Positions 3,892 to 40,722 of a DNA stretch of 41,455 nt are shown in pieces. Every line of letters starts with the position of its first letter. Positions within the stretch are counted from its first letter, which is position 1. Made by a program: the position numbers and the translations under genes. The notes under the pieces are model-generated. The model made no database searches. It was not told the DNA's origin and saw only the letters and a list, made by a program, of their open reading frames with translations. This DNA is from a virus. Location of the stretch: the IMG/VR virus record IMGVR_UViG_3300032241_001226, positions 1-41,455 of that record, one strand, 5' to 3'.

Positions 3892-3920
3892 ATTTTACAT
3901 GAAAACATATCTTTTGTCAA
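3892..3920 (-). promoter_or_regulatory. Near-consensus sigma70-type promoter (TTGACA-N17-TAAAAT)
   Basis: Minus-strand TTGACA (3920-3915), 17-nt spacer, TAAAAT (3897-3892). It overlaps the last codons of the gene at 3895-4557 and would start transcription some 20-25 nt before the ATG at 3861. One mismatch to consensus. Confidence 0.55.
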
Positions 3921-4557
3921 TCATTTCTAGATGTTGATATACCTTTTTGGCTATTCTTTTGGTTATATCGTTTAGCCCAAAATATTCAATATATGCACGT
4001 AACATTGGACTAACTAAATTAAGTCCAGTGCGCATTTTACTCATTTTGCTTATTCTGCTCAAATTACGTTGAGCTCGATTTGCATCCATATGCCTTAGCA
4101 GTTCAATGGTAATGCTTAGTGCATACGCATCTATCTCGTCTTGGCTAGCCAAATATTTGTCATAGGGTGATACGTATGCGTTTTCATGGTCAATAAAATC
4201 TCTACGCATACTTTGGTATTGATGCCTAAATTCGTGGACTACGGCGTCATATATTTCTATTAAAAAACTAGTCACCTGATGTTGACCAAATTCTTCTTTG
4301 CCGCTGAGATTATGATGGACTACAACTTCGATAGGTGTTTCTCCGTTTAAATCACTTTCGCTGTCATAATAAGCCATGACATAAAATTTATCGGGATCCC
4401 AACCTTTTTCTTTTTTGGTTGTAATAGTTATATCAAACTCGTAACGATTAAATGTCGCTCTAGTTTGTGATATTAACTTTTTGAATGTTATAAGATCTGG
4501 ATTATTATCTCGAACGGTTTTGCAAACTTGATTAACACGATCGAGAATAATATTCAT
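3895..4557 (-). CDS. HExxH zinc metallopeptidase-like phage protein
   Basis: 220 aa. Residues 104-116 read YDAVVHEFRHQYQ, an HExxH zinc site (H108, E109, H112). A Glu about 29 residues on (SQDEIDAYA, E141) could be the third ligand, as in gluzincin-type peptidases. The N-terminal 100 residues are beta-rich; the C-terminal 70 are helical and basic. There is no signal peptide, so it should act in the cytoplasm or in a particle. Proteolysis of host or structural proteins is plausible but unproven. Confidence 0.65.
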   Translation of the reverse strand: MNIILDRVNQVCKTVRDNNPDLITFKKLISQTRATFNRYEFDITITTKKEKGWDPDKFYVMAYYDSESDLNGETPIEVVVHHNLSGKEEFGQHQVTSFLIEIYDAVVHEFRHQYQSMRRDFIDHENAYVSPYDKYLASQDEIDAYALSITIELLRHMDANRAQRNLSRISKMSKMRTGLNLVSPMLRAYIEYFGLNDITKRIAKKVYQHLEMIDKRYVFM

Positions 4558-4558
4558 T

Positions 4559-4777
4559 TTATAACCTGTAAGTTACTCTACCTTTTGTAAGGTCATAAGT
4601 GCTAACTTCCACTCTAACTTGATCCCCTAGAATAATTCTAATCTTATTCTGTTTGAGCTTGCCACCCATATAACATAGCAAGGGCTCTGGCATAGCATCA
4701 ATTTTAACTCTAAACATACTGCCCGGAAGGACTTCTTCAACTCGTCCTTCTAATTCTATAATATCGTCTTTACTCAT
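4559..4777 (-). CDS. infA: Translation initiation factor IF-1
   Basis: 72 aa, the exact size of bacterial IF-1. It aligns over its length: MSKDDIIELEGRVEEVLPGS followed by MFRVKID, then the conserved GGKLKQNKIRIILGDQVRVE block, then STYDLTKGRVTYRL at the end. This S1-like OB-fold normally sits in the 30S A site with IF-2 and IF-3 during start-site selection. A phage copy is unusual. An initiator-type tRNA-Met is encoded at the far end of the window. It lies one base beyond the metallopeptidase gene in the transcription order and overlaps the AbrB-like gene by 8 nt. Confidence 0.93.
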   Translation of the reverse strand: MSKDDIIELEGRVEEVLPGSMFRVKIDAMPEPLLCYMGGKLKQNKIRIILGDQVRVEVSTYDLTKGRVTYRL

Positions 4778-4940
4778 CTTTTACTTTTGTAATGCTCCAA
4801 GAGCCGTCTCCGTTATCTGTCCACTCAAGTGTGTCTCCTTCTTTCCAGCCTTGTAGATCTAACAGATCTTGTGGTAATGGTAAAACAACATCTCCACTAC
4901 CGTCATTTGCTTCTTCAACTGTTACTGTCCAATATGTCAT
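4770..4940 (-). CDS. AbrB/MazE-like small DNA-binding-type protein
   Basis: 56 aa from MTYWTVTVEEAND. A 17-codon in-frame extension upstream looks non-coding. The segment VVLPLPQDLLDLQGWKEGDTLEW is the swapped-hairpin (AbrB/SpoVT/MazE) core: strand, proline-rich turn, short helix, 'GWKEGD', strand. The closing strand is DGSWSITKVKD. Proteins of this size and sequence are common in marine myoviruses. Family members act as small transcription regulators or antitoxins; no toxin partner is adjacent. Confidence 0.75.
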   Translation of the reverse strand: MTYWTVTVEEANDGSGDVVLPLPQDLLDLQGWKEGDTLEWTDNGDGSWSITKVKDE

Positions 4941-4954
4941 AGTATTATTTAACC

Positions 4955-5485
4955 TTAAACTTCGTCTTCGCTCCAAGGAACTGGTCTCCAACCTAACTTA
5001 TTTAAGTCAAGTTCAATTTCTTCAGTAACTACCCCTTCTGATACATAGCCTTTTGGACTTTCGTCTTCCATACTTAGACCTCCGCCAATGCCGCTACAAT
5101 ACCAATCGATATAGTCGCCTTTTTCTTGCATGTCAGCAATTATACCGCCAGCATGACGCCAAGAGCAACTCCAAGTTTCACCTTTCATTTCTTGCCAAAA
5201 CTCTCTACATTGCCAAGTCATGTTACACATTGCGGCATATAAGTTTTGAGCATAAGTGTCGCTGGCTTTGACTTTGTCGCAAAGTTCTTTCGAACTACGG
5301 AGATCGTATTCCATATTGTTCCTTTGCCACTTTGGGTCTTTAAGGTTCTCCTCGTCCTGTTCTCGCCATGTCTTATACATATTAATATAGGCAGGATTAG
5401 GCTCTTTGCCTTCTTCTTTGCAGTGCTTGATATACCCTTCTTTTTGAAAGGTATGGCGTTCCGGACTACTTGCTACTTTTTTCAT
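4955..5485 (-). CDS. Conserved marine-phage hypothetical (WRHAGGI/DWYCSG motif)
   Basis: 176 aa. The N-terminal 60 residues are charged and helical. The C-terminal half carries the conserved phrase SCSWRHAGGIIADMQEKGDY, then IDWYCSGIGGG and an acidic tail with a PVPW motif. I associate this motif with uncharacterised proteins of T4-like marine phages. No catalytic signature beyond conserved W, H and C residues. The start overlaps the preceding stop by 4 nt. Confidence 0.65.
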   Translation of the reverse strand: MKKVASSPERHTFQKEGYIKHCKEEGKEPNPAYINMYKTWREQDEENLKDPKWQRNNMEYDLRSSKELCDKVKASDTYAQNLYAAMCNMTWQCREFWQEMKGETWSCSWRHAGGIIADMQEKGDYIDWYCSGIGGGLSMEDESPKGYVSEGVVTEEIELDLNKLGWRPVPWSEDEV

Positions 5486-5814
5486 TTATGATAATCGCCT
5501 TGAAAACAATGTAGAGCTTCGTGCCCTAGATTGTGTATTGTTGTATATTTGGGTGTAATGATTGTGCAAGCAGAATGACTGTTATCCCAAAAACTACAAC
5601 CTTGAATAGCATAACCAAACCCGCCTTGTCCACGTCTACGGCTTTCACGTTCACAGGCAGCCTGTATCTGTCCGTTATCTACACGGATCCACGTAACATT
5701 AGTGCTGTCAGTTTCAGTTTTTGTTGCATCAAAAATAGCATCAGCATTACGCCAATCCCATGCATAAGCATTAACTGTTACTAATGTTGCTAAAATTACT
5801 AGTGCCTTTTTCAT
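5482..5814 (-). CDS. Secreted HExxH metallopeptidase-like small protein
   Basis: 110 aa from MKKALVILATLVTVNAYA, a clear signal peptide with an AYA|W cleavage site. An in-frame extension upstream would translate the tRNA-like gene and is rejected. The mature part has three Cys in its middle and ends NLGHEALHCFQGDYH, with an HExxH zinc site (H98, E99, H102) and D107/H109 nearby. Export to the periplasm is inferred. A role in cell-envelope breakdown or surface processing would fit, but nothing shows it directly. SD-like GAGG lies before the ATG. Confidence 0.7.
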   Translation of the reverse strand: MKKALVILATLVTVNAYAWDWRNADAIFDATKTETDSTNVTWIRVDNGQIQAACERESRRRGQGGFGYAIQGCSFWDNSHSACTIITPKYTTIHNLGHEALHCFQGDYHK

Positions 5815-5834
5815 ATTGCCTCTGTGTGTTAAAC

Positions 5835-5930
5835 TGGTGTGGACGGTAGGATTTGAACCTACAAAGTCGCTCAATGAGCTAGACCCTTTCCCAGCAAGCC
5901 GGAGGTTTACCATGTTACACTCACGTCCAC
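5835..5930 (-). tRNA. Class II tRNA-like gene, anticodon arm unclear
   Basis: The minus strand gives a 7-bp acceptor stem (GTGGACG with CGTCCAC), discriminator A and an encoded CCA. A perfect T arm (GTAGG-TTCAAAT-CCTAC), a D-type loop with GG (CATGGTAA), and an extra hairpin GCTC-ATT-GAGC where a long variable arm belongs are also present. This is a class II tRNA outline (Ser, Leu or Tyr). The stretch between D arm and variable arm (CGGCTTGCTGGGAAAGGG) does not form a regular 5-bp anticodon stem. A serine anticodon GCT in TTGCTGG is the nearest reading, but weak. It may be a decayed or unusual tRNA. The signal-peptide gene follows about 20 nt downstream. Confidence 0.6.
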
Positions 5931-5936
5931 GTGTCT

Positions 5937-5965
5937 ATTTTAGCATAGCTTGTAAATACTGTCAA
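5937..5965 (-). promoter_or_regulatory. Near-consensus sigma70-type promoter for the tRNA-like gene
   Basis: Minus-strand TTGACA (5965-5960), 17-nt spacer, TAAAAT (5942-5937), seven bases before the tRNA-like 5' end at 5930. The -35 box touches the first base of the ATG of the divergent gene at 5965. A plus-strand TGTAAATA (5951-5958) sits in the spacer, six bases before that ATG, and may serve the opposite operon. Confidence 0.6.
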
Positions 5966-6924
5966 TGCAATTTTCTACCATACCTTTCGAAAAGATTACC
6001 CATTTTGGACAGCAGACTATGCTGGATCGTCCATTATTTAACATTAGTTGGATATTGGGCAGATTTTGTAATTATAAATGCAGTTATTGTTGGCCCTATG
6101 CTAGGACTGACAAACCAGATCACCAACCGCTTGAAGTATATAAATCTACTGTAGACGAGATTAAGCGTCAAGCACGAGCCAATGGGTTTAACCAGTTCCA
6201 TTGGTCGTTCAGCGGTGGTGAACCGACTGCTTACAAATATCTGCTCGATTTAATTAAACATTTAGATGATGGCGCCTTAACTCCTTACCAAACTGTGCAT
6301 ATGACTACCAATTTAAGCCCTAGTTTGGGTTGGTGGCGAAGTTGGCATCATGCCACTGAATTATTACAACGTAGAAGTATTACAGCCAGTTATCACGCTG
6401 AACATGCTAAAGAGTCTGAATTTGGTGATAAGTGCCTACAGTTAATGTATGACCTAGTTCATGTTACTATCAATCAAGTTATGGTGCCGTCCAAGTTTTA
6501 TGAAACGCTAGAACGCTGTGAACGTTTTAGGGCCAGAGGAATTAATGTAACTCTTAAACCTCAGAGCAATGAAAGTGCTAGTGCAGTTGTAGATGGCTAT
6601 ACGCAAGATATGATTAACATCATGCAAAATGATTTTGAACAAAAAGAAGGCTACCAAATTAAGCTAACTGACGGAACACAAGATTATTTTGTTGATCAGG
6701 CAGAACGTTTTAATGCCCTAGGATTTAATCAATTTAATGGATGGACTTGCAATAGCGGATATCAAAGTGTTATAATACGAGGTAATGAAATTAAACGTGC
6801 ATACAGTTGTTATGATGAACCGTTAGGCAATCTAGAAAAATTTACTTTGTTTTCTAGTCCACAAATATGCACTACTCCGCGCTGTGTTAGTAGCGCAGAC
6901 AGCAAAATACCTAAGATAAGATAA
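5965..6924 (+). CDS. Radical SAM protein with degenerate SPASM-like C-terminus
   Basis: 319 aa. The cluster motif CNYKCSYC (C35, C39, C42) binds the catalytic [4Fe-4S]/SAM, with GGEPT at 84-88. A later strand carries SYHAEH, matching the SVHHE/SYHPE motif of its paralogues. The tail has C residues in GWTCNSGY, YSCYDEP and ICTTPRC, like the paralogues, but lacks the final Cys of their C-x4-C-x-C. First gene of an eight-gene coupled operon. No Shine-Dalgarno precedes the ATG, which lies six bases after TGTAAATA, so a leaderless message is possible; M19 (6019) is the alternative start. Substrate unknown. Confidence 0.85.
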   Translation: MQFSTIPFEKITHFGQQTMLDRPLFNISWILGRFCNYKCSYCWPYARTDKPDHQPLEVYKSTVDEIKRQARANGFNQFHWSFSGGEPTAYKYLLDLIKHLDDGALTPYQTVHMTTNLSPSLGWWRSWHHATELLQRRSITASYHAEHAKESEFGDKCLQLMYDLVHVTINQVMVPSKFYETLERCERFRARGINVTLKPQSNESASAVVDGYTQDMINIMQNDFEQKEGYQIKLTDGTQDYFVDQAERFNALGFNQFNGWTCNSGYQSVIIRGNEIKRAYSCYDEPLGNLEKFTLFSSPQICTTPRCVSSADSKIPKIR

Positions 6925-7907
6925 TGGAAAAGATAATTAAAATTGTTAGGAAAAATACCAGTAATCTAGACATAGAATTTGTCTTAGGTAATACCTGCAA
7001 CTATAAGTGTAGTTATTGTTTTCCGGGAAGCAACGAGGGCACCCAACGTTGGCCTGATGTAGACTTAACATTAAAAAATTTTTCAATCTTATTAGATTCC
7101 TATAAAAATAAAAATCGTATTCATTTGAAACTAGTAGGCGGAGAACCTACATTATGGCCAAACCTATTAACATTTGTAAAAGAGTTAAAATCAAAATACA
7201 ATATTATAATTTCGATGAGCACCAACGGCAGTCGGACTATCAGATACTGGGAGGAAATTTCAACGTATTTCGATGATATACAGATTAGTGTGCATCACGA
7301 ACAAGCAGATCTAGATCACTTAATAGCAGTCTCAGATGTAATATATAAAACTAATCAAACTATATTTTCAGCTAATGTATTAATGGATCCAAGATCTTGG
7401 GATAAATGCGTAGCAATTACAGAATACTTGTTATCTCACAGTGACGGATGGATGGTTGCAGTTGTCCCAGTTCAGTTCGATGGACTTACTAGATATAATT
7501 CTGAACAACAACAATATGTGGCAGTAAAAAACAAAAGAATGCCTCCGATGCCTTGGGTGCAAAAATTAATCGATTTAGGAAAATTACCTCCGGACAAAAA
7601 TTATAATAAATCTATTGCCACGTTTGCCGACGGCACTACAAAAGAAGTAGACGGTCATTATCTAATTAATAATCAACTTAATAGATTTAAAGGGTGGGAA
7701 TGTAACCTAGGAGTAGATAGGATTTTTATTAACGGAGAAGGGCAATTAGAAGGTGCTTGCCAAACTGAACTATTCAATAATCAACTTAATATTAGAGAGA
7801 TAGAGTTTGAGTCTAAGATGCCTAACATTAGTATTGCTCCTATTATCTGTAATAAAGAAATTTGCGGCTGTAGTGCAGAAACTAGATTAACTAAACAACA
7901 GCTATGA
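6924..7907 (+). CDS. Radical SAM/SPASM-like enzyme
   Basis: 327 aa. CNYKCSYC (C25, C29, C32) and GGEPT (72-76) define the AdoMet radical core. STNGSRT and the strand IQISVHHE follow. The C-terminal part has WECNLGVDR, GACQTE and ICNKEICGC, five cysteines placed like SPASM/twitch auxiliary cluster ligands. It is close to the protein at 8494-9513 (shared FDDIQISVHHE and WECNLGVDR), so the two are likely duplicates. Its ATG overlaps the previous stop (TAATG). SPASM enzymes often modify peptides or proteins; that role is inference here. Confidence 0.9.
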   Translation: MEKIIKIVRKNTSNLDIEFVLGNTCNYKCSYCFPGSNEGTQRWPDVDLTLKNFSILLDSYKNKNRIHLKLVGGEPTLWPNLLTFVKELKSKYNIIISMSTNGSRTIRYWEEISTYFDDIQISVHHEQADLDHLIAVSDVIYKTNQTIFSANVLMDPRSWDKCVAITEYLLSHSDGWMVAVVPVQFDGLTRYNSEQQQYVAVKNKRMPPMPWVQKLIDLGKLPPDKNYNKSIATFADGTTKEVDGHYLINNQLNRFKGWECNLGVDRIFINGEGQLEGACQTELFNNQLNIREIEFESKMPNISIAPIICNKEICGCSAETRLTKQQL

Positions 7908-8497
7908 ATATAGATACAGAGCATATTCATCATTGGATGCAAGCCATTAGACAAAGTCCAGATCCTATACGGACTATGGATGCCTTTTGGTCTGGACAAC
8001 TTAAAAGTAAAGAATGGCTTATCGATAGGCTAAGTGAGCATGTAGATTCGGCGTCTAGTATAGAAATATGTGCAGGATGGGTAGGTGTTCTAGCCAGTAT
8101 GCTGTTTCAAAGCAATATTCCAATTACGCACATTGCCAGCTATGATATTGATCCAACCTGCAAGCCTATTGCAGAAGCTATGAATAAGCTAGAAGAGATG
8201 CAGGGCAGATTTCGTGCCAGCGTAGTAGATATAAGTCAACCCATGCATATGAGTGCTGATATAATTATTAATACAAGCTGTGAACATCTTACACAAGCAC
8301 AGTATAACACTTGGCTAACCTATACTCCTAAAGATAGTTTACTTGTATTGCAAAGCAATAATTACGATATACCTGAACATATTAGGACAGCGAATAACTT
8401 AGAAGAATTTAAAACACAATGTGGTGTTGATGTATTATGGGCAGGCGAATTAACGTTGCCGTTATATACACGATATATGATTATAGGAAAAAAATGA
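7904..8497 (+). CDS. Class I SAM-dependent methyltransferase-like protein
   Basis: 197 aa. Motif I appears as SIEICAGWVGVLASML, where the usual glycine-rich loop is replaced by AGWVG. Strand two ends in an acidic pair, ASYDIDPTC, which would hold the SAM ribose. IIINTSCEHLT is motif IV, with Thr-Ser-Cys-Glu near the active site. The C-terminal beta hairpin (YTRYMIIGKK) closes the fold. It is ATGA-coupled on both sides between two radical SAM genes, so it probably works on the same substrate. Family fairly sure; target atom unknown. Confidence 0.75.
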   Translation: MNIDTEHIHHWMQAIRQSPDPIRTMDAFWSGQLKSKEWLIDRLSEHVDSASSIEICAGWVGVLASMLFQSNIPITHIASYDIDPTCKPIAEAMNKLEEMQGRFRASVVDISQPMHMSADIIINTSCEHLTQAQYNTWLTYTPKDSLLVLQSNNYDIPEHIRTANNLEEFKTQCGVDVLWAGELTLPLYTRYMIIGKK

Positions 8498-9513
8498 AAC
8501 CTATCGCAATCATAAACAGCGACTATGATGATTATTTACATGTTACATTTGCGTTTACAAATGTGTGTAACTATGATTGCCACTATTGCACTCCATTGAG
8601 TAAATCTGGAAGTTATAGATTTCCTGACTATGATCTAGTAATTAAAAATATGGATCATATGTTGAATATCTATAGGACTCATTTTAATAAAAAAGTTATT
8701 CGTATGCATGTAGTAGGTGGTGAACCTACCTTATGGCCTAAACTAGGCGATTTTGTAAAATGGTCTCACGACAACTATCAATGCCGTGTTACAATGAGCA
8801 CCAATGGCAGTAGAACTCTTAGATGGTGGGACGAGTATGCTCATTATTTTGACGATATACAGATTAGTGTGCATCATGAATTTACAGACATTGATCATAT
8901 TAAAAAAGTCCTGGACCTAATTTATTCTAAACAAGATATAATGGTTGCCGCACAGGTATTGATGGATCCTTTGCACTGGGATAAATGTCTCGGCATACTA
9001 AATGATCTAGTTGACTATCCGACCCCTTGGCTAGTGAAATCTAGGGTAGTGTTAGATTTAGATGAAAAAAATATTCGGCCAGAGTATACTGAAGAACAGC
9101 TTGAATTTTTAAAAGAAAAAGTTAAAAAAATTCCTCCAAGCGACTATGTAGCCCGCATGAAGTCAACTGGAAAGATACAAAATTCAGAAAAGGCCAATGC
9201 TGTATTAGTGTTTCAAGACGGGTCACAAAAACAATATAATACTTTTGAAGTTTGGAAAAATCAATGGCATAAATTTTACGGATGGGAATGTAATCTAGGA
9301 GTAGACAGGGTAGCTATTGGCGCAAGTGGCATCATGATTGGGTCTTGCCTTGCTCGTAATATGTTTAACCAAGATACTCCGTTTTCAATTTACGATCCAG
9401 ATTTTAGTAAAAAATTTAATAAAGATCTAATTAAACCTATAACCTGTAAAGAAATTTTCTGTAGTGGATGCTCTAGTGATATTAGGCTTCCAAAAAGGAA
9501 ACAGCATGTATAA
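8494..9513 (+). CDS. Radical SAM/SPASM-like enzyme, paralogue of the gene at 6924
   Basis: 339 aa, starting at MKPIAIINSDYDDY, where ATG overlaps the methyltransferase stop; a longer frame upstream is just methyltransferase sequence. CNYDCHYC (C25, C29, C32) and GGEPT (75-79) give the radical SAM core. IQISVHHE and the tail WECNLGVDR / GSCLA / TCKEIFCSGC repeat the pattern of the 6924 protein, with one extra residue in the last Cys pair. The two probably act on related substrates or sequential sites. Confidence 0.9.
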   Translation: MKPIAIINSDYDDYLHVTFAFTNVCNYDCHYCTPLSKSGSYRFPDYDLVIKNMDHMLNIYRTHFNKKVIRMHVVGGEPTLWPKLGDFVKWSHDNYQCRVTMSTNGSRTLRWWDEYAHYFDDIQISVHHEFTDIDHIKKVLDLIYSKQDIMVAAQVLMDPLHWDKCLGILNDLVDYPTPWLVKSRVVLDLDEKNIRPEYTEEQLEFLKEKVKKIPPSDYVARMKSTGKIQNSEKANAVLVFQDGSQKQYNTFEVWKNQWHKFYGWECNLGVDRVAIGASGIMIGSCLARNMFNQDTPFSIYDPDFSKKFNKDLIKPITCKEIFCSGCSSDIRLPKRKQHV

Positions 9514-10477
9514 GCTGCCTGATATAACAAAACTACATATTGAAATAACCAGCAAGTGCCAAGCTAGTTGTCCTATGTGCGTGAGGAATATACAAGGAGG
9601 AGATATAAGTCCTTGGCTTGAATTAAACGAAATATCCCTTGAACAATTTAAACAATGGTTTCCTTTAGATTTTTTGAAACAATTGCTTGTAATATCTCTA
9701 TGCGGTAATACAGGTGATCCTATTATTGCTAGTGATACTTTAGAAATTTTAAAATGGGTAAGACAGGTAAACCCTGATATTAAATTAAATATGAATACTA
9801 ACGGCAGCGCCAGGACTTTAGAATGGTGGAAAGATCTAGCCGCAGTGGGCGTAACTGTTATGTTTGGCATTGATGGACTAACCGATACGCACAGTCTCTA
9901 TCGAATAGGAACAGATTACGATAAGATACTTCGTAATGCCAAAACCTTTATTGATGCGGGCGGCACCGCAGAATGGCACATGTTGGTATTTAAACATAAT
10001 GAACATCAGATTGAATCTTGTCGTAGTTTAAGTAAGGATTTAGGATTTCAAAATTTTGTAGTAAAGCACAGTTCTAGATTTAGAAATGATAACGTGGTTG
10101 TCCTACATCCAGCAAACTCACACACAATATATCCAAGTAACCGTAGCCAAGAAATAAAACATAAACTTGGCACTATTAAAACTACATCTAATATAATCTG
10201 CAAGGTAAAAGAAGAAGGTAATATTTACATAAACGCCAAGGGAAATGTAACGTCATGCTGTTGGATGGATTTTTCAGGCATGTCTCCCGACTCTGAAGTA
10301 TATGAAGATTATTTGTCTAGGGGGTTAACTACTCCGAGTTTATTAAATACTACCCTGTCGGCTATCTTTGAAAGCGAGTATTTTAATATGATAGAACAAT
10401 CGTGGAGCACTAATCCATTAAAAACCTGTAACAAACAATGCGGAGAAATAGATAAATTTAATGAGCAATTTAAGTAA
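9506..10477 (+). CDS. Radical SAM protein (MoaA/SPASM type, non-GGE variant)
   Basis: 323 aa from MYKLPDITKLHIE, preceded by AAGGAAAC and overlapping the previous stop by 8 nt. The CxxxCxxC motif is CQASCPMC (C18, C22, C25). Where relatives have GGEP it reads LCGNTGDPI, a known variant in this superfamily. The C-terminal region has INAKGNVTSCCWMDFSG and ends NKQCGE, consistent with SPASM-type auxiliary ligands. It is a distinct branch from the four GGEPT paralogues of this operon. Substrate unknown. Confidence 0.87.
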   Translation: MYKLPDITKLHIEITSKCQASCPMCVRNIQGGDISPWLELNEISLEQFKQWFPLDFLKQLLVISLCGNTGDPIIASDTLEILKWVRQVNPDIKLNMNTNGSARTLEWWKDLAAVGVTVMFGIDGLTDTHSLYRIGTDYDKILRNAKTFIDAGGTAEWHMLVFKHNEHQIESCRSLSKDLGFQNFVVKHSSRFRNDNVVVLHPANSHTIYPSNRSQEIKHKLGTIKTTSNIICKVKEEGNIYINAKGNVTSCCWMDFSGMSPDSEVYEDYLSRGLTTPSLLNTTLSAIFESEYFNMIEQSWSTNPLKTCNKQCGEIDKFNEQFK

Positions 10478-11765
10478 AACTTGGTGTCCCCTTCCTTGGA
10501 TACATATCGCTACTAGACCTAATGGAGATGTCCGACTATGTGCCACGGCTAATGCTAGCGGAAGTGGTGTGATAGAAATTAAAGATGCTGGGCTAGTAAA
10601 ACACAATGGTGTGCAGTTAAATCTACGTCAGCATACTATTGAAGAAGCATGGAATAGTTCTTATATGAAAGATGTTCGGTTGACCATGCTGAAAGGCGAG
10701 ATGCCTTCTAGTTGTTTAAAATGCTATAGAGAGGAATCAATTGGTATTAACAGTAAACGACAATGGGAAACACACGAATGGTCGACAAGGTTAGACTATG
10801 AAAGCCTTGTTGCCCAAACTGCCGAAGATGGTAGTTTACCAGTTAACGTGCCTTATTTTGATTTAAGACTAGGAAACATGTGCCAGCTTAAATGTGTCAT
10901 GTGTAGTCCTCACGATAGTAGTGCTTGGATTAAAGATTGGAAAAAGCAGTATCCATCTTATAAAATTAAAGAATTACGAGATGATCAGGGCTGGGATATA
11001 ACATGGGATTATACTTGGTATAAAAAAGGAGATTTTTTATCATCAATGAAATCCCAAGCACATCATATAAAAGAATTATATTTTGCCGGTGGCGAACCTA
11101 CTCTAATACCTGAGCACTATAAAATTTTACAGTTTATGATAGATAGCGATAATGCTAAGAATTGCGTATTACGTTACAACAGTAATGGTATTGAATTACC
11201 CGATGAGCTGTTTGATCTATGGCACCATTTTAAAGAAGTTAAATTTAACCTATCAATAGATGCGGTATATGATCGAAACGAGTATATACGATTCCCTAGC
11301 AAATGGAAACAAATTGAAGAAGCTGTTCGAAGATTAGATGACACAGAAGATAATGTCACAGTTAATATAGCCTGTGCAGTTCAATTGCTAAATGTATTAT
11401 ATTTAGACGAGTTAGCAGATTGGAAATTACAATCAAAATTTAAAAAAATAAATTTGGCGCCCTATGGTGGCGGAGTAATCGGCATGCACCTAGTTACATA
11501 TCCTAGCTATCTTAATATAAGAGTGCTTCCTATGCAGTTAAAAGAGCTTGCGGCAGATAAAATACGTAAATTTATAGATACACATCTAACTGAAGAATTT
11601 ACATCGTCTGTATATGGAAAGCAAAGATGGGAAGCACTAATTACATATATGATGGCCGAAGATTGGACACATAAATTACCTAGCACAGTTGAATATCTAG
11701 AATCATGTGATGCTACACGAGGAACAAATTTTAGGAAAACATTTTTAGAGTTAGATATATTATGA
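10461..11765 (+). CDS. Twitch-domain radical SAM protein, N-terminal accessory cluster
   Basis: 434 aa. The order is unusual and diagnostic: a cysteine domain comes first (TWCPLPWIHIATRPNGDVRLC, then CLKCYREE at 85-92), then the radical SAM core CQLKCVMC (C141, C145, C148) with GGEPT at 210-214. The paralogue at 17752-18939 has the same order. Such proteins recur in marine phages and environmental bacteria without a defined reaction. It overlaps the previous gene by 17 nt and the next by 4 nt. Confidence 0.88.
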   Translation: MSNLSKTWCPLPWIHIATRPNGDVRLCATANASGSGVIEIKDAGLVKHNGVQLNLRQHTIEEAWNSSYMKDVRLTMLKGEMPSSCLKCYREESIGINSKRQWETHEWSTRLDYESLVAQTAEDGSLPVNVPYFDLRLGNMCQLKCVMCSPHDSSAWIKDWKKQYPSYKIKELRDDQGWDITWDYTWYKKGDFLSSMKSQAHHIKELYFAGGEPTLIPEHYKILQFMIDSDNAKNCVLRYNSNGIELPDELFDLWHHFKEVKFNLSIDAVYDRNEYIRFPSKWKQIEEAVRRLDDTEDNVTVNIACAVQLLNVLYLDELADWKLQSKFKKINLAPYGGGVIGMHLVTYPSYLNIRVLPMQLKELAADKIRKFIDTHLTEEFTSSVYGKQRWEALITYMMAEDWTHKLPSTVEYLESCDATRGTNFRKTFLELDIL

Positions 11766-12418
11766 CACATAATGAATTAGAAAGATCAGCTCTTTGGAAC
11801 AGCCTAGTTAATTTAGGATCTTTTGTAAAAACTAAATGGTGGTTCGATCCCTACTCAGTGGAACAGCAACTAGCGCAGTTTAAAGATAATTGGTGTCCTT
11901 ATAATGCAAAAAAAGATACTACAAACAATAGATGGGGTCTACCTGTTACTAGTCACACAGGTGATGTAATGGATAACTATCATCTAAACAGTTTTGGGTA
12001 TATGCAAAAATATCACAATGTAGAAATGAAAGAAGAAAATTTTACTACTCCGACTACTGTCTATTATTCGATTCCAGAAATAAAGAAACTTGTAGATGTG
12101 TTTAGTCCCGACATTGGGCGGGTGCATTTTCTTAGGATAGACAAAGGTGGATTCTTTCCGCCCCACAGAGACTTCCAGGGAACTAGTCCAGAGTATTTTA
12201 GATTGTTAACTGTATTTGGTAGATGCAGTCCAGAAAACTATGTGCAAATGGTTGACGGACGGCCGTTATATCCTGAACCTGGTTGGACTTATTTTATGAA
12301 TACGCAGTTAGACCACAGTGTTTTTAGTTTTAGTGATAATCTTTTTGCACTAATCTTAACAGTTAAACTGAACGAACGCACACACGGTATTATTATGAAT
12401 AATACTATGAACTCATGA
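11762..12418 (+). CDS. Asp/Arg-hydroxylase-like 2OG-Fe(II) oxygenase
   Basis: 218 aa. The double-stranded beta-helix is visible from about 118: VHFLRIDKGGFFPPHRDF (H135, D137) and later NTQLDHSVFSF (H185) give the HxD...H iron triad. The first 110 residues are a helical, W-rich extension. The closest fold is the aspartyl/asparaginyl beta-hydroxylase type. It would hydroxylate a side chain or small molecule using O2 and 2-oxoglutarate. Flanked by radical SAM genes with 4-nt overlaps on both sides. Confidence 0.8.
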   Translation: MTHNELERSALWNSLVNLGSFVKTKWWFDPYSVEQQLAQFKDNWCPYNAKKDTTNNRWGLPVTSHTGDVMDNYHLNSFGYMQKYHNVEMKEENFTTPTTVYYSIPEIKKLVDVFSPDIGRVHFLRIDKGGFFPPHRDFQGTSPEYFRLLTVFGRCSPENYVQMVDGRPLYPEPGWTYFMNTQLDHSVFSFSDNLFALILTVKLNERTHGIIMNNTMNS

Positions 12419-13326
12419 AATTAGAATACAAAGATAAAAGTAAAGAAAATTGGTTTCTAATTACCTGGGACCTAGGTAATAAGTGTAACTATCGGTGCAG
12501 TTATTGTCCTAGTGCGTTTAATGATGGTAGTTCAGGATGGCCAAGCTGGGAAGATGTGAACACATTTGTTAAAGAAATAAACAATCGTCTTCCTACTAAG
12601 CATATCTGTTTTAGGATCAGTGGCGGCGAACCTACTTATTGGAAACACTTTTTAGATTTTGCCGAGTTGATAAAAAGTTATGGAAACAGTTTTAGTTTTC
12701 TTTCTAACGGCAGCAGGGATTTAAATTATTTTAAAACTATATCTAAATTTACAGATGGTGTAATTTTAAGCTATCACCCCGAATATGCTGACCAATCGCA
12801 TTTTATTAATATCTCTAAAGAAATGTCATGTCCGGTAGCAGTAAACTTAATGATTGGGCCTGATAATTTTGATGAAATGGTCTCAGTTGCAAAATACTTG
12901 TATGATAACAGTTCTATGGCAATATGGCCTAAAGTTATATTAGACAAGCAGACAATGTCTAATAAGATTGCTGATTACACTAATGAACAAACAGCATTTA
13001 TTAAATCTTGGCCTTTTTTTAGAAAATTAAATGATTCTAAAATACATCGAGGTGAAATACTATTAGATGGACAACTGATCACAGCAAATGATCTTCTATT
13101 GCAAGGATTAAACAAACATCATAATTGGACATGCTATGCCGGAGTAGACCAGATTAATATTAGTTTCATAGGTGAAATATTTAGAGCAGACTGCCAAGTT
13201 GGCGGCCCTATAGGTAATATACGAAAGTTTACACTACCAGTGTCTACTATCACCTGTGATAAACAATATTGTAATTGTTTAAGTGATATCTATCTTAGAA
13301 AGAGTAGTAGTGTAGTCAGCATCTAG
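12415..13326 (+). CDS. Radical SAM/SPASM-like enzyme
   Basis: 303 aa. CNYRCSYC (C24, C28, C31), GGEPT (70-74), then FLSNGSRD and LSYHPEYAD, matching the SxHxE strand of its paralogues. The tail WTCYAGVDQ / ADCQVGG / TCDKQYCNC gives five candidate auxiliary-cluster cysteines. Last gene of the operon. Its final 48 nt overlap, tail to tail, the 3' end of the propeller gene on the other strand, and no terminator is visible there. Confidence 0.9.
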   Translation: MKLEYKDKSKENWFLITWDLGNKCNYRCSYCPSAFNDGSSGWPSWEDVNTFVKEINNRLPTKHICFRISGGEPTYWKHFLDFAELIKSYGNSFSFLSNGSRDLNYFKTISKFTDGVILSYHPEYADQSHFINISKEMSCPVAVNLMIGPDNFDEMVSVAKYLYDNSSMAIWPKVILDKQTMSNKIADYTNEQTAFIKSWPFFRKLNDSKIHRGEILLDGQLITANDLLLQGLNKHHNWTCYAGVDQINISFIGEIFRADCQVGGPIGNIRKFTLPVSTITCDKQYCNCLSDIYLRKSSSVVSI

Positions 13327-22473: not shown

Positions 22474-23205
22474 ATGAATCGTTATATTAAAGACTATACA
22501 GTCTCAGACCTTACCGATGAATTTATTCTAAGTGAAGATTGGGACGTTATAGAATTTAACTTACGATTAGATACTGTAAAACTTACAGAATATTTTAACG
22601 AAGTTAAGGCTAAACTACATTATTTGTATTTTGATTTTAACTATAGCGAACATTTAACTCCCGAAGTTAACGAAAAATTTCAAACCACTAACATGGTTAC
22701 TAACTACCTAGGTGAAGTAGGAGGCTGGACCATTTCTTGGCCAGTTGAAAAGGATATACCGATACCTGGCAGAACTCAAGGTAATTTAGCAATATATCCC
22801 GAATTAGAATTATATCCTACTAAAGAGGATTTTTATTTTAGTTGCAAAGTTTTAAAGCAATATAAATTTGGATATTTTAATTCCATCTATGATGCCTTTA
22901 CTGAAAAAGGATTACGCCAGACTATTTTTTCTAATCACAAACCTGGTGTAAAAACACTTACTCATCACGATGACTTTATAAAGAAAAAACTTCATTTACC
23001 TCTTGAGACTAATCCTAACGCTTATTTTTATTTTGGAAAAAATCAAGAACGTCAGTATCAATTTGAATTAGGAAAAGCCTATCTCATTAATCCAGCAGTT
23101 TACCATAGCACTGATAATACTGGTAATACAAATAGAACTCATTTAATTTCAAGAGTTGATTTGGATTTTATGCCGACGCTGTTTTCGATAAAAGGAATTG
23201 TATGA
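22474..23205 (+). CDS. Asp/Arg-hydroxylase-like 2OG-Fe(II) oxygenase paired with propeller
   Basis: 243 aa. By alignment with its paralogue at 14436-15140 the iron site is H164, D166 (LTHHDDF) and H211 (AVYHSTDN), with R221 (NTNRTHL) for 2-oxoglutarate. SWPVEKDIPIPG and NPNAYFYFGKNQERQY are shared landmarks. It starts two bases after the propeller stop and overlaps the halogenase start by 4 nt. The propeller-hydroxylase pairing occurs on both strands of the window. Confidence 0.85.
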   Translation: MNRYIKDYTVSDLTDEFILSEDWDVIEFNLRLDTVKLTEYFNEVKAKLHYLYFDFNYSEHLTPEVNEKFQTTNMVTNYLGEVGGWTISWPVEKDIPIPGRTQGNLAIYPELELYPTKEDFYFSCKVLKQYKFGYFNSIYDAFTEKGLRQTIFSNHKPGVKTLTHHDDFIKKKLHLPLETNPNAYFYFGKNQERQYQFELGKAYLINPAVYHSTDNTGNTNRTHLISRVDLDFMPTLFSIKGIV

Positions 23206-24374
23206 AAATATTAATAATAGGAGGAGGCAGCGCCGGATGGATGACTGCCGCTTACCTTTCTAAAAATACAGATCATAATATTACTTTAATTGAAAATCCC
23301 AATTATCCAACTATTGGAGTAGGTGAAAGCACTATACCTAGCATAAACGATTTTATAGAAAGTGTAGGTCTCACTGAAAATGATCTAGTAGAACATTGTA
23401 ATGCTATTAGGAAATATACTGTTCAGCATAATAATTGGAACGGAGTTGATACATGGTGGCATCATTTTTGTTTTAATGAAAGCGAGCACCGAGAACAATT
23501 AGAATGGATGCAGACTAATTCGTTACCCAATAAAAAATGGAGGCATGCTTACCATTTAGATGCTACTAAATTAGGATTGCTATTACGAGATAAAGTAGCA
23601 TTGCCTAGCGGTGTTAGACATATTTTAGAAGACATCGTTGATGTAGAAATTTTGCATGATGGCGTTAGTGCTGTAGTAGGAAATAAAAACAAATATACAG
23701 CAGATTTATATATTGATTGCACAGGATTTAAGGCATTACTGGGCAACAAAGTAGGAATTAAATCTAAAAATCATCCGGGACTAATTAACAATTATGCCCT
23801 ATGCGGCCCGGGAGATTTTGTAGAACCTCTAGTAAATTATACGCAAACTTATGCAATGGATTATGGGTGGAGATGGAGAATTTGTATTGCCAATAGAACT
23901 GGAAATGGTTATGTCTTTAATAGAGATTTAATCAGCATAGAGGATGCACGAAAAGAATTTATTTCAAAAACTCCTGGCATTATAGTTGATAAAATTTTTG
24001 AAATTCCTATTCCTAAAAGTTACAATACAGAACCGTGGAAGAAGAATGTTGTCAGTGTAGGGTTAAGTTGTGGCTTTTTAGATCCGCTTGAAGCAACTGG
24101 ATTATTTTTAATCCATGGTCCTTTAAAATTATTAGTAAAATTATTAAATGACCCAGATGGCCCTAAAAAATACAATAGCATTTGGTGCAAACTTTATAAT
24201 CACCTTGCTGATTTTCTATCACTGCATTTTACCACTAGTTGTTTAGACCATACAGCGTATTGGAAATCTATTTCAAAAGTAAGTTATATTACTATGCCTG
24301 AAAAGAATCAGCCCTTGTTTGATCAATATAGTTATCGCCAGCTAGCCAACGCTCGCGGGCTGTCATATAGTTAA
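23202..24374 (+). CDS. Flavin-dependent tryptophan-halogenase-like protein
   Basis: 390 aa. The N-terminal FAD site is MKILIIGGGSAGWMTA, followed by IGVGESTIPSI. K71 in AIRKYTVQHNNW aligns with the halogenase catalytic lysine (K-x7-W spacing kept). The motif WxWxIP reads WRWRIC at 223-228, so Pro is replaced by Cys. LDPLEATG is present in the C-terminal half. Size is 100-150 aa below classic enzymes such as PrnA. It may halogenate an indole or phenol ring, but a flavin oxidase/monooxygenase role is possible. A separate reductase for FADH2 is not seen. Overlaps the convergent gene by 83 nt. Confidence 0.82.
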   Translation: MKILIIGGGSAGWMTAAYLSKNTDHNITLIENPNYPTIGVGESTIPSINDFIESVGLTENDLVEHCNAIRKYTVQHNNWNGVDTWWHHFCFNESEHREQLEWMQTNSLPNKKWRHAYHLDATKLGLLLRDKVALPSGVRHILEDIVDVEILHDGVSAVVGNKNKYTADLYIDCTGFKALLGNKVGIKSKNHPGLINNYALCGPGDFVEPLVNYTQTYAMDYGWRWRICIANRTGNGYVFNRDLISIEDARKEFISKTPGIIVDKIFEIPIPKSYNTEPWKKNVVSVGLSCGFLDPLEATGLFLIHGPLKLLVKLLNDPDGPKKYNSIWCKLYNHLADFLSLHFTTSCLDHTAYWKSISKVSYITMPEKNQPLFDQYSYRQLANARGLSYS

Positions 24375-24888
24375 GAACATTAACTTTCCAAAGACTTTGC
24401 TCAGTATTGTATAAATTTATGCTAGGCATTGTTAACTCTAAATATCCTTGACTTGCTAATCTAGGCATCATTGTTTTATGTAATCTACTGCTTGCTCCTG
24501 CTTTTGGATTATCTATGTTTGTAGTAATATAAAATTCAGCATCTAGATCGTTTACATATTTTATTTGTTGATATAGGAATTGACTAAAATGTATTCCACT
24601 TTTAAATATGTCCATGCTCCACTGTGGAGTATAACCAGGAAGTTGAGCACCTCTAAACAAACAACGCCACGCACGGTTATTTATTTCTGGTAATTTGTGT
24701 ATTCCGGCTAGTGATATTATTTTGTCTTCATCAAATGCGGCAAAGAAGACGGCAGAACTAAATTTCATTGCAGTTAAAGATGCATTATTTTCATATCCTA
24801 ATTCCGAACACTTTTCACAAAATTCTTGAATAGCAGGGATATCAATGTTTGTTAACTGTTTAAAGATTAGTTTTCCAGGTCTGTCCAT
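24292..24888 (-). CDS. GNAT-like acyltransferase, phage type
   Basis: 198 aa. The order fits a GNAT fold: an N-terminal strand-helix (FKQLTNIDIPAIQEF), AVFFAAFDEDKIISLAGIH as the central beta hairpin, then a conserved phage phrase AWRCLFRGAQLPGY, and a C-terminal YITTNIDNPKAGASSRLH where GNATs bind the pantetheine. Motif A is not classical, so activity is uncertain. It overlaps the adenylate-forming gene by 29 nt. Together they could activate and transfer an acyl or aminoacyl group. The 3' end overlaps the halogenase gene on the other strand. Confidence 0.6.
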   Translation of the reverse strand: MDRPGKLIFKQLTNIDIPAIQEFCEKCSELGYENNASLTAMKFSSAVFFAAFDEDKIISLAGIHKLPEINNRAWRCLFRGAQLPGYTPQWSMDIFKSGIHFSQFLYQQIKYVNDLDAEFYITTNIDNPKAGASSRLHKTMMPRLASQGYLELTMPSINLYNTEQSLWKVNVLNYMTARERWLAGDNYIDQTRADSFQA

Positions 24889-25498
24889 TTGCGGTCTCTT
24901 TTCTTTTTAAGAACATTCTAGTAGTTACATTAAACAAGTCACCGGTTAACATTCCATTAACTACACATTCTCCTTCATCAGTAAATTCTACGCTATATCC
25001 ATCTTTAGGAGTAAAATCAAATGATTCTGTATTATATCCAACAAATATTGGCGGAGGCATTTCTGTCATACCATACCAATTTGCTACTAGTTGAACTCCC
25101 TTATTTCGAAGTTTATCTATCATAGATTGATCCATTGCTTGGCTGCCGGTAACCATATATCGAACACACTTCATATCAAGCTCTTCCCACTCTTTTGTTT
25201 TTTCTAAAACTTCGATATGTTTTGGCAATAGAGCGATAACTGTAGGTTGATACTTTTTAAATAATCGTATATATTTGTAAGCATCAAAGGTCATTGAAAT
25301 TAAATGTGAACCTGCAATTATTGCAGGTAATGCCGTAACGGTATAATGAGCTATTACATTTGCTGGAAACACATCTAAAACAATGTCGTTAGAAGTAAGC
25401 CCTATTTCTTTAATACTGCGAGTAATATGAAAAGCCATATTGCTATGGCTTATTTCTTTTGGCTCTTTAGTGCTACCGGAAGTATGTAATGTTATCAT
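24860..25498 (-). CDS. Minimal adenylate-forming (ANL/AMP-binding) enzyme
   Basis: 212 aa, against about 500-600 for acyl-CoA synthetases. It starts directly at the A3 phosphate loop TSGSTKEPK (6-14), has YGMTE (142-146, A5) in NWYGMTEMPPP, and ends shortly after TGDLF (185-189, A7). Both the usual N-terminal subdomain and the C-terminal lid with its catalytic lysine are missing. Either a partner supplies the second half or it makes only the adenylate. It has its own perfect promoter, with the ATG five bases after TATAAT, so the mRNA is probably leaderless. Confidence 0.78.
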   Translation of the reverse strand: MITLHTSGSTKEPKEISHSNMAFHITRSIKEIGLTSNDIVLDVFPANVIAHYTVTALPAIIAGSHLISMTFDAYKYIRLFKKYQPTVIALLPKHIEVLEKTKEWEELDMKCVRYMVTGSQAMDQSMIDKLRNKGVQLVANWYGMTEMPPPIFVGYNTESFDFTPKDGYSVEFTDEGECVVNGMLTGDLFNVTTRMFLKRKETANGQTWKTNL

Positions 25499-28488: not shown

Positions 28489-29092
28489 ATGTTTCCGGTT
28501 TCTTTGTATCCACTGAAGCACCTAGCATCGGGCGTCGATCAAATTTTTGTGTTTCGTCTTCTACGTAAAACAAAAATACTTGAACTTGTTTATTTCCGTT
28601 GTAAGGTAATCGCCAATGTTCTAGTTTATCTCCGTGATACACACAAGCATCACCGACGGGCAATTCTAACTTGTTTTCTACTCCATTAAAATCTTTCATC
28701 CAGATATACCAAGGATCACTAGTTTCATCTATGTCAATAGTAACAGTGACAGCATAATCTGATCCTGGTCTATCAATATGACGTTTTAATTCCGAGCCCT
28801 TATAGTATATTCTAGCATACGAGTATGATGGATACAAAGTTTTTCCTGTAATGGCTTCTATTTTAGGTTGGAGCAATGATAACAGAGCTTCACAACAATA
28901 AGCGCCATACCACGAAAACGTTTTTGGTTTATCCGGATCGCTAAGGAATCCTACTGAATTTAAATCTACGTTATTAACGTAAAATGTATTATCCCTTAGC
29001 ATATTAAATTCAAGAGAAATTAATTTAGCTGTTTCGGTGCTTATTGCATTTTCTAAAACAGCATATCCTATCTCATTGAATTTATTTTCCAT
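28463..29092 (-). CDS. 2OG-Fe(II) oxygenase, eHWR type
   Basis: 209 aa. YYKGSELKRHIDRPGSDYAV gives H105 and D107; GDACVYHGDKLEHWRLP gives H159 (or H153) with R161 for 2-oxoglutarate. The phrases DYAVTVTIDID, DPWYIW and VQVFLFYV mark a branch found in phages and large DNA viruses. It starts one base beyond the parvulin stop and overlaps the next gene by 26 nt. Confidence 0.83.
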   Translation of the reverse strand: MENKFNEIGYAVLENAISTETAKLISLEFNMLRDNTFYVNNVDLNSVGFLSDPDKPKTFSWYGAYCCEALLSLLQPKIEAITGKTLYPSYSYARIYYKGSELKRHIDRPGSDYAVTVTIDIDETSDPWYIWMKDFNGVENKLELPVGDACVYHGDKLEHWRLPYNGNKQVQVFLFYVEDETQKFDRRPMLGASVDTKKPETYEFGHTNI

Positions 29093-29352
29093 TACTTAGT
29101 TCTGTGAATTAAGTGAAAGCCAAACTGTGTTTGAACTGGCTGACTAATAGAACCAACTGGGGTTGCTAGTGTAGCATCTTCAAATGGTTTAACCATTTGG
29201 CCAGGACCAAACTCTCCCAAATCTCCGCCACGTGCCTTACTAGGACACTTGCTGTGTTGCTGTGCTAATGATCCAAAATTTAATGGGTTAGCTTCTTTAA
29301 GAATAGCTTCTGCTTGTTCTTTTGTATCTACTAAAATATGACTTGCTTGCAC
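29092..29352 (-). CDS. Single-domain parvulin peptidyl-prolyl isomerase
   Basis: 86 aa, a lone PpiC/rotamase domain. ASHILVDTKEQAEAI opens it, HSKCPSKARGGDLGEFGPGQ is the family core, and TQFGFHLIHRTK closes it. The start codon is GTG, fixed by a strong AAGGAG six bases upstream. It catalyses cis/trans isomerisation of X-Pro bonds in the cytoplasm; no signal peptide. Second of two tandem parvulins, about 33% alike by eye. Possible roles are folding of virion proteins or acting on a modified Pro-containing substrate. Confidence 0.92.
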   Translation of the reverse strand: MQASHILVDTKEQAEAILKEANPLNFGSLAQQHSKCPSKARGGDLGEFGPGQMVKPFEDATLATPVGSISQPVQTQFGFHLIHRTK

Positions 29353-29364
29353 TTTATTCTCCTT

Positions 29365-29652
29365 TTATGCTGTGCGTTTAATTACGTGCCAACCAAACAT
29401 CGACATGATCGGTCTTGGGGTTATCTCACCGACTTCTAATGCAAATGCCGCATCTTCGATTGGTTTCTCTCCTCCAATTCTATCAATATAGCCCAGGTCG
29501 CCTCCTTTATCTTTTGATTGCGAATCCATACTATATAGTTTAGCAACTTCCGCAAAGTCTATACCTTGTTCTATTTGACTTTGCGCATACATGGCCTGTG
29601 TTTCCAAATGACACATTATATGCGATATTCTAACTTTTCCTATAATACCCAT
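29365..29652 (-). CDS. Single-domain parvulin-like peptidyl-prolyl isomerase
   Basis: 95 aa. The order matches the partner gene: RISHIMCHLETQA, then SMDSQSKDKGGDLGYIDRIG, IEDAAFALEVGEITP and MFGWHVIKRTA. The active-site strand starts SHI, with the second family His in GWHVIK, so it is probably active. It begins 15 nt after the 3' end of tRNA-Pro with AGAGGA as ribosome site, and ends 12 nt before the next parvulin. A duplication of its neighbour. Confidence 0.85.
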   Translation of the reverse strand: MGIIGKVRISHIMCHLETQAMYAQSQIEQGIDFAEVAKLYSMDSQSKDKGGDLGYIDRIGGEKPIEDAAFALEVGEITPRPIMSMFGWHVIKRTA

Positions 29653-35682: not shown

Positions 35683-36252
35683 TTAAATTTCTAAAAATAA
35701 ATCTAACACTAGACAAATTCTAGGTGTATCGCTATTATGTATGCTTACAGAATGATTAATCTTTGCATCGTGAATTACTAGTTCACCTTCGATTGCAGTA
35801 TGTATTATACTTTCATTGTTTTGTATAAAAAACAAGTTTGCACTATTTTCGGGAACTTGAACATAAAAAATTGCAACTACCATTGTTCCAGGATGAATTG
35901 TAGAATAATGATTATGGACAGCACCTTCGCTGCCTTTATACATTACATTAAACCAATTTCTACCAATGCTAACTTTTTTAAGATCTCCGTTGATAAATTC
36001 TTTAGAATTTTTAATAACCTGGTCAATTATCCAATCTAATATTTTTTTAGAATCGGTTAAATGGATAAGATGCAGATCAGGAACATCGCAAGTTGACGGA
36101 GCGTAGCCAGTTCCGATTTGTTGTTGCGCTGTCTTAATGCGGGGATCATTAATCCATTCTAACATTTGGTTAATCATAGATGAGGGAATATAATCGCTAA
36201 CATTGCAATTTTCTGTTACTACAGTAGTTTCAAAAATTTGTTTAATTGTCAT
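35683..36252 (-). CDS. 2OG-Fe(II) oxygenase-like, 2OG-FeII_Oxy_5 related
   Basis: 189 aa. YKGSEGAVHNHYSTIHPGTM gives H113 and H115, the same H-x-H as the protein at 27066; ELVIHDAKINHSVSIH gives H167 (or H161); DTPRICLVLDL gives R178. The sequence is more diverged than the other oxygenases. It starts one base inside the stop of the radical SAM gene. Confidence 0.75.
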   Translation of the reverse strand: MTIKQIFETTVVTENCNVSDYIPSSMINQMLEWINDPRIKTAQQQIGTGYAPSTCDVPDLHLIHLTDSKKILDWIIDQVIKNSKEFINGDLKKVSIGRNWFNVMYKGSEGAVHNHYSTIHPGTMVVAIFYVQVPENSANLFFIQNNESIIHTAIEGELVIHDAKINHSVSIHNSDTPRICLVLDLFLEI

Positions 36253-39567: not shown

Positions 39568-40722
39568 TTATCTACTAGTATAACTGTAATTAAATACTTT
39601 GTCAAACATTTTCCACGTATCTGGGTAATGAACTCCGACTAATTCGTATAATTGAACATTATTTAATTTTTCTAAATATGACTGAAATCTTTTACTATTT
39701 TCGAGATAATTAGATGTATTCTTTACGGTTTCATTCCAAAACTTGGAATTAAAATTACTACCTCCGTGATATATAAAGGCAATAAAAGTTTCTATGTCCT
39801 GTGCTAGTGTTAGCAATGCTTCATTTGCAATATATGTAGGTTTGTTAAACATAATAATATCAAACAAATATCGGTTAACTACAGTATAATACAACCCGGC
39901 TAACGCATCCATTGGTTCGAAAAACATTGCACGATTTCCGTTTTTAATTATCCTACCTTCTACTACATTCTTGCAATAATAGTTTTTAAATTTAAATTCT
40001 TTTAAATTTAGATTATCGTTATTAAAGATTTTTTTAATATTTTCAGTTGCTTCTTCTTTTGAAGTTAATTTATCATTATAAAGATATCCCCAGCCTTGAC
40101 GGGTAGATAACGGAACCCCAAACATCCAACCATGTTCAGTTGCTACGTGTTTAGTAAATCTCCATTCACCTGGTTCATTAATTATATTTACTAAACAATG
40201 GTTAACCGGAGTAACTTCACTTTCTACATAGTCTGTGTAATCTTCCGGATATCCTCTGCAATCAATTACCCAATCAAACGAATTTAACTTATCATTAACT
40301 ACAACAACTGCATGATCGTTATAGTTTTTAATTTCCGAAACGACACCGTGTATCTCACTAAATCTATCCCCGTGAATTTCTTTAAATCGGGGTAATGCAT
40401 ATTCTTTTAGCGCAAAATTGTTAAAATGCATTCCAATTTCAGGAGGCATAACATCTAATTTTATTTCATCTTTTCGCCAATTTATAAAATGCGAACCATA
40501 TTTTGGAGTTGCATCTAATTTACTAAAATCTTGATAACCAAAACCACAACCCTTATACAAACTAGGTAATACCGCTGGACCAGCAGTTTCGCCTATCCCT
40601 AGAATTGGGATAGTTGGATCAAATATGCTAGTTATGTTCCATTCAGGCGGCAAAAATCCTAGCAAATGTGATATGCTAATTATGCCTCCAGTTCCTACTC
40701 CTATAACTGCAATATTTTTCAT
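39568..40722 (-). CDS. Flavin-dependent halogenase-like oxidoreductase
   Basis: 384 aa. IAVIGVGTGGIISISHL is the FAD loop (Gly-rich, slightly off GxGxxG); ILGIGETAGPAVLPSL matches the GVGE-T-P segment. K74 in ATPKYGSHFINW falls in the position of the halogenase catalytic lysine. The WxWxIP site reads HGWMFGVPL, so only one W and the P remain. FFEPMDALAG stands for the late DPLE motif. Halogenase or monooxygenase chemistry cannot be separated by eye. The ribosome site AGGAG begins at the A of the upstream tRNA-Ser CCA end, so tRNA trimming must leave it intact. Confidence 0.78.
   Translation of the reverse strand: MKNIAVIGVGTGGIISISHLLGFLPPEWNITSIFDPTIPILGIGETAGPAVLPSLYKGCGFGYQDFSKLDATPKYGSHFINWRKDEIKLDVMPPEIGMHFNNFALKEYALPRFKEIHGDRFSEIHGVVSEIKNYNDHAVVVVNDKLNSFDWVIDCRGYPEDYTDYVESEVTPVNHCLVNIINEPGEWRFTKHVATEHGWMFGVPLSTRQGWGYLYNDKLTSKEEATENIKKIFNNDNLNLKEFKFKNYYCKNVVEGRIIKNGNRAMFFEPMDALAGLYYTVVNRYLFDIIMFNKPTYIANEALLTLAQDIETFIAFIYHGGSNFNSKFWNETVKNTSNYLENSKRFQSYLEKLNNVQLYELVGVHYPDTWKMFDKVFNYSYTSR
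39577..39605 (-). promoter_or_regulatory. Near-consensus sigma70-type promoter for tRNA-Trp/Leu
   Basis: Minus-strand TTGACA (39605-39600), exactly 17 nt, TATACT (39582-39577), 14 nt before the tRNA-Trp 5' end. It overlaps the last codons of the halogenase-like gene. Confidence 0.65.

Follow-up and report, generated by a model that had tools for sequence, protein, structure and literature searches.

The stretch of DNA analysed here (the window) is an IMG/VR virus record of 41,455 bases, classed as linear, which carries at positions 4559-4777 an open reading frame resembling the bacterial translation initiation factor IF-1. The questions raised by this locus are whether the reading frame is a genuine IF-1 gene, whether it belongs to a phage or to a bacterial chromosome, and what a phage could gain from its own copy of a factor that its host should already possess.

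Identification of the IF-1 gene

A preliminary description of this DNA had reported a full-length IF-1 of 72 residues at 4559-4777. The coordinates and the length are correct, and the strand, which was left unstated there, is the minus strand. The gene runs from 4777 to 4559 with an ATG start and a TAA stop, whereas stops interrupt the plus strand over this interval. The minus-strand translation is MSKDDIIELEGRVEEVLPGSMFRVKIDAMPEPLLCYMGGKLKQNKIRIILGDQVRVEVSTYDLTKGRVTYRL (72 residues). It covers the complete NCBIfam equivalog model for infA, TIGR00008 (model positions 1-69 of 69), and to judge from the scores against this model and Pfam family PF01176 (eIF-1a/IF-1), the family matches are far above chance (Table 1). 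The protein also matches PHROG 30201 over 1-70 of its 88 positions. This family has no function label in PHROGs and evidently represents the phage IF-1 family, so that the window protein provides a label for a hitherto unnamed group.

Every match found in a sequence search for relatives with a solved structure was an IF-1. An AlphaFold (AF2) model was built from 21 phage sequences, with a pLDDT of 66 overall and below 50 in loop 40-47. The top 13 PDB matches in a Foldseek search with this model, all with E<0.001 (4e-5 to 8e-4), were IF-1, with TM scores of 0.50-0.59 that are to be read together with a pLDDT of only 66. The predicted structure is an OB fold like that of the solved IF-1 structures.

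Table 1. Coordinates of the IF-1 gene and neighbouring genes in the window
Feature	Position	Strand	Evidence and remarks
IF-1 (infA) gene, 72 aa	4559..4777	-	TIGR00008 83.4 bits (cut-off 61.15), PF01176 67.7 bits (cut-off 30.2); at most 85% identity to other phage copies and 56% to cellular IF-1; top 13 Foldseek matches in PDB are IF-1
220-aa downstream gene with HEFRHQ motif	3895..4557	-	SprT-like metallopeptidase by eye; start 1 nt past IF-1 stop
Small AbrB/MazE-antitoxin-like protein (PHROG 661)	4770..4991	-	PHROG 661 E 9e-13; PF04014 E 2e-4, under its cut-off; 3' end overlaps IF-1 start by 8 nt
176-aa upstream co-directional gene, function unassigned	4955..5485	-	Homologue in 77/80 related loci
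143-aa upstream co-directional gene, function unassigned	5482..5913	-	First gene of the minus-strand run; found in 69/80 related loci
Radical-SAM gene, divergent; edge of the IF-1 run	5965..6924	+	PF04055; opposite-strand homologue near IF-1 in 65/80 loci

Phage origin of the window

A 265,680-base IMG/VR contig (G004) provides the best match, in the same order and with 43-86% identity, for most genes between positions 3 and 6924 of the window and for the gene at 7904-8497; the IF-1 proteins are 85% identical and the products of the genes beside IF-1 43-76%. This 265-kb contig encodes a large terminase subunit (TerL), SSB, a DnaB-type helicase and a tail tube protein, together with about 30 tRNAs and a predicted tmRNA. 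Its TerL is nearest to that of PA5oct-like Pseudomonas jumbo phages (52%), followed by that of Sinorhizobium phage Phosso (51%), and the TerL relatives form a large set including enterobacterial phages and cyanophages. A second relative, of 345,369 bases, has a TerL at 84% identity and also the IF-1, at 83%. IF-1 is thus present in both of these long TerL-bearing contigs; TerL contigs below 200 kb that lack IF-1 are uninformative in this respect, as the distance between TerL and IF-1 is about 158 kb in the 265-kb contig. Because of the synteny with the 265-kb TerL contig, and because IF-1 also occurs in the 345-kb one, the window derives, on comparative grounds, from a T4-like jumbo phage, of which it is a fragment; the label T4-like is based on the terminase relatives and on the replication and tail genes of the 265-kb contig.

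The contrary reading, that the contig is a bacterial chromosome or a chimera and the IF-1 an ordinary host infA, is extremely improbable; a chromosomal contig had been named in the preliminary description as an objection to its own claim. Such mislabelling does exist: in the GenBank record 'Acinetobacter phage MD-2021a' the genes around infA are asd, truA, leuB, leuC and leuD. At least one pair of the GenBank matches is plainly chromosomal in this way, and was not taken as phage IF-1. The window block, however, is syntenic with a contig bearing terminase, SSB, helicase and tail tube genes. Moreover, no cellular protein exceeded 56% identity in a pattern-limited scan of 84,980 GTDB species genomes or 55% among 299 Pseudomonadota genomes, 288 of which yielded an IF-1, and the phage loop motif described below is found in none of the 80 best GTDB matches. 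On the basis of the virus record, the jumbo-phage synteny and the low cellular identity, chromosomal origin or contamination was rejected.

Gene order around IF-1

The IF-1 gene forms part of a run of minus-strand genes bounded by a divergent radical-SAM gene (Table 1). As already proposed in the preliminary description, IF-1 and its adjoining genes are probably translationally coupled, since its start and the upstream reading frame share 8 nt and its stop is followed at a distance of 1 nt by the start of the next gene. The AbrB/MazE-like reading frame as listed (4991..4770) has a TTG start, but translation may in fact begin at an internal ATG. No Pfam or PHROG match was obtained for the product of 3895..4557.

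Gene order was compared across 80 IMG/VR loci, being the best 80 of at least 243 contigs. In 73 of these loci, the start of a homologue of the downstream gene lies 218-222 nt beyond that of IF-1, and the homologue of the 176-residue upstream gene is nearly always found directly upstream of IF-1, while an AbrB/MazE-like gene could be recognised directly upstream in 49.

Distribution and previously known phage IF-1 genes

A single scan of IMG/VR identified at least 243 contigs with relatives of the window IF-1; the best 80 of these encode 42 distinct proteins, and identity of the window protein to other phage copies reaches 85%. A tblastn search against 50,697 GenBank phages gave 36 records, and the credible GenBank phage IF-1 genes are those of Phosso, fifteen Lak megaphages, six Bacteroides DAC16-like phages and two uncultured huge phages. 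The earlier remark that phages rarely carry IF-1 therefore holds for phages overall, but not for the lineage of the window.

Various other records were set aside. Staphylococcus, Listeria and Enterococcus 'phage' records and short faecal ones are unannotated assemblies, several of them marked unverified, with a bacterial-type IF-1 in the two copies that were read; they are probably chromosomal and were not counted. The surroundings of infA in a record labelled Acinetobacter phage (L111, CAKLQH020000005.1) are those of a bacterial chromosome, and other wastewater or faecal 'phage' records with IF-1 may likewise be bacterial chromosome.

A 'prokaryotic initiation factor-1' was reported for Lak megaphages in 2019 (Devoto 2019, PMC6784885) and IF-1 in huge phages in 2020 (Al-Shayeb 2020, PMC7162821), and these reports already proposed that host translation is augmented or redirected. 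Gut Jug phages have a conserved gene for 'translation initiation factor 1A' (PMC12363816). In the open-licence literature searched, neither experiments on phage IF-1 nor an earlier description of the clade-specific signature were found. Phage IF-1 is thus already known, and the window copy is a new member of this kind from a distinct, widespread and strongly conserved viral lineage with a signature of its own.

Evolution of the phage IF-1 clade

In a tree of 84 sequences and 72 columns, in which the deeper joins are unsure, the window protein and its IMG/VR relatives form a single clade with support of 100/99, and the stem leading to it is 1.49 changes per column long. The Lak, Phosso and DAC16 copies and those of the two uncultured huge phages branch outside this clade. 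A common origin with the Lak, Phosso or DAC16 IF-1 is not supported by this tree, although an alignment of 72 columns is too short for a decision. A recent transfer from a host is likewise unsupported, as no close cellular copy was found in the sets searched.

The clade is characterized by a single additional residue (window position 29) within the beta2-beta3 loop, present in 43/43 phage-clade sequences and in 0/55 cellular sequences. The residues C35, Y36, L41, K42, Q43, K45 and I49 are also common to all 43. Phage pairs with dS of 0.1-1.5 have a median dN/dS of 0.05 and a maximum of 0.17 (654 non-independent pairs). These observations indicate that IF-1 is long established in the phage lineage of the window and is under strong purifying selection.

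30S-contact residues and the A-site loop

In a model of IF-1 on the 30S subunit, K39 and M42 are located at G530, R41 and R46 at A1492/A1493, and H35, Y60, R64 and R66 on the side facing S12 (PMC10913371), while the C-terminal R70 is important in E. coli (PMC10913371; PMC4611024). The counterparts of K39, M42, R41 and R46 in the 43 phage sequences are K/R40, Q43, K42 and R/K47, and those of H35, Y60, R64, R66 and R70 are Y36, Y61, K65, R67 and R71. Thus Y60, R66 and R70 are invariant, and basic contact positions remain basic. Loss of the rRNA-contact residues had been named in the preliminary description as evidence that would speak against its claim; instead K39, R41, R46, Y60, R64, R66 and R70 are all kept or conservatively changed (R41 to K). 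The E. coli IF-1 row of the alignment served only for orientation, and none of the conclusions depends on it by itself.

All phage copies have K at position 42 (E. coli R41) and Q at position 43 (E. coli K42), and position 45 is always K, a position mostly occupied by Y, F or R in cells. Because K42, Q43 and K45 are fixed, and because of the extra residue in the beta2-beta3 loop, the A-site loop of the phage copies is unlike the ordinary bacterial one. These fixed, mostly conservative loop changes are the only hint in the sequences of an altered behaviour.

Companion translation genes and start signals

The window encodes nine tRNAs, and although the fragment itself has no gene for ribosomal protein bS21, this protein is encoded in four IF-1-bearing relatives (128, 133, 265 and 345 kb). 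IF-1 therefore belongs to a set of phage translation genes, consisting of tRNAs and the bS21 of relatives. Phage bS21 has been proposed to favour phage transcripts (PMC9723584). An IF-3 partner was absent from the 11 IMG/VR relatives tested. A Shine-Dalgarno core precedes 25-44% of the phage genes, exceeding shuffled sequences, and apart from this ordinary excess no unusual start signal was evident. In the 265-kb relative (L091, 12470-12886), the tmRNA predicted by ARAGORN has an unusually long tag and is located next to 27 clustered tRNAs; the prediction could be a false call.

Possible function of the phage IF-1

We propose that the gene encodes a functional, long-resident phage IF-1 that supplements or replaces the IF-1 of the host, the benefit being one of dosage without any special mRNA preference, and we assign this reading a probability of about 0.6. 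Orthology to infA, the location in a phage, the conserved operon, the retained contacts and purifying selection all argue for it, as does the higher conservation of IF-1 than of the adjoining genes in the comparison with the 265-kb relative. The phage would make extra IF-1 during infection, which would occupy host 30S subunits at the A site (h44, 530 loop and S12), and 30S initiation complexes would continue to form at a sustained or raised rate while host infA expression falls, with phage bS21 and many phage tRNAs acting alongside. In this scheme we infer the binding to 30S, the production of useful amounts of protein, the falling host infA expression, and dosage as the benefit. Counterpoints are the unusual A-site loop, the modest confidence of the AF2 model, and the host infA that should already be present, so that the need for extra IF-1 is assumed.

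IF-1 occupies the A site, and no mRNA feature is known that it reads by itself, so any bias toward phage messages, as suggested in the preliminary description, would most plausibly be indirect, through IF-1 dosage. In cold-shocked E. coli the amounts of IF1 and IF3 per ribosome increase and contribute to translational bias (PMC6511846). By analogy, extra IF-1 could shift the set of translated mRNAs without recognising them.

Alternatively, the altered A-site loop and extra residue could give phage mRNAs an advantage by affecting how start sites are selected, subunits join or factors are released. The clade-fixed changes in the very loop that touches A1492/A1493 and G530, the insertion confined to the phage sequences, the long stem of the clade and the frequent company of bS21 with its proposed preference are consistent with such a specificity variant. 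We nevertheless regard it as unlikely, as most of the replacements at contact positions are conservative, no reading of mRNA sequence by IF-1 is known, and no unusual start signal is evident in the phage genes. A more elaborate version, in which the virus-specific IF-1 with its fixed insertion and reshaped loop would join phage bS21 in a modified initiation module that makes host 30S subunits prefer phage mRNAs, is quite unlikely. IF-1 also has RNA-chaperone activity, and the protein could have taken on a CspA-like role as OB-fold RNA chaperone or transcription antiterminator, with the 30S subunit no longer the main target. The predicted OB fold and the neighbouring genes, none of which is a recognisable translation gene, would agree with this, but the invariant Y60, R66 and R70 and the basic residues at 39, 41, 46 and 64 are what ribosome binding needs, and together with the strong purifying selection they make such a role very unlikely.

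A phage-encoded IF-1 bears on the question whether phages alter initiation itself, beyond supplying tRNAs. The clade offers a compact test case, being a small protein that strong purifying selection has kept in a large and diverse group of jumbo phages, often accompanied by bS21, and with a decoding-centre loop unlike that of every cellular IF-1 examined.

Other genes in the window

A run of radical-SAM genes extends over 5965-13326, with four PF04055 matches between 5965 and 10477 and other genes similar to those of relatives, and a further radical-SAM gene with a B12-binding-like domain is found at 36252-37736. This concentration is unusual for a phage, and homologues occur in the jumbo relatives. 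The gene at 23202-24374 encodes a tryptophan-halogenase-like flavoprotein (PHROG 2928), and a second, weakly similar one lies at 39568-40722. Near these halogenase-like genes, many proteins encoded between 26510 and 34605 resemble 2-oxoglutarate/Fe(II) oxygenases by eye, and the combination suggests a modification or natural-product-like island. Tandem genes for parvulin-type (PPIC) prolyl isomerases are located at 29092-29352 and 29365-29652, the first being 85% identical to one in the 265-kb relative, and a short protein of 212 residues at 24860-25498 gives a partial match to the profile of AMP-binding (adenylation) domains.

Comparison with known systems

The IF-1 of Lak and other huge phages is, like that of the window, full-length, encoded by large tailed phages, and proposed to augment or redirect host translation. 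The copies of Lak-C1, Phosso, DAC16 and the two uncultured huge phages, at 35-51% identity, differ in that they have no one-residue insertion and do not show the loop signature CYMGGKLKQ. Phosso, an isolate of 469 kb whose TerL is 51% identical to that of the 265-kb relative, encodes IF-1, IF-3 and bS21, but its IF-1 has a bacterial-like loop and only 45% identity to the window protein. With bacterial IF-1 (infA, TIGR00008) the window protein shares its whole length, the OB fold and the 30S-contact positions. It differs by an identity of at most 55-56% in the genomes searched, by the extra residue at window position 29, by the replacements H35 to Y, R41 to K, K/M42 to Q and Y/F/R44 to K, and by a C-terminus ending in YRL, where most cellular copies carry a further K or R.
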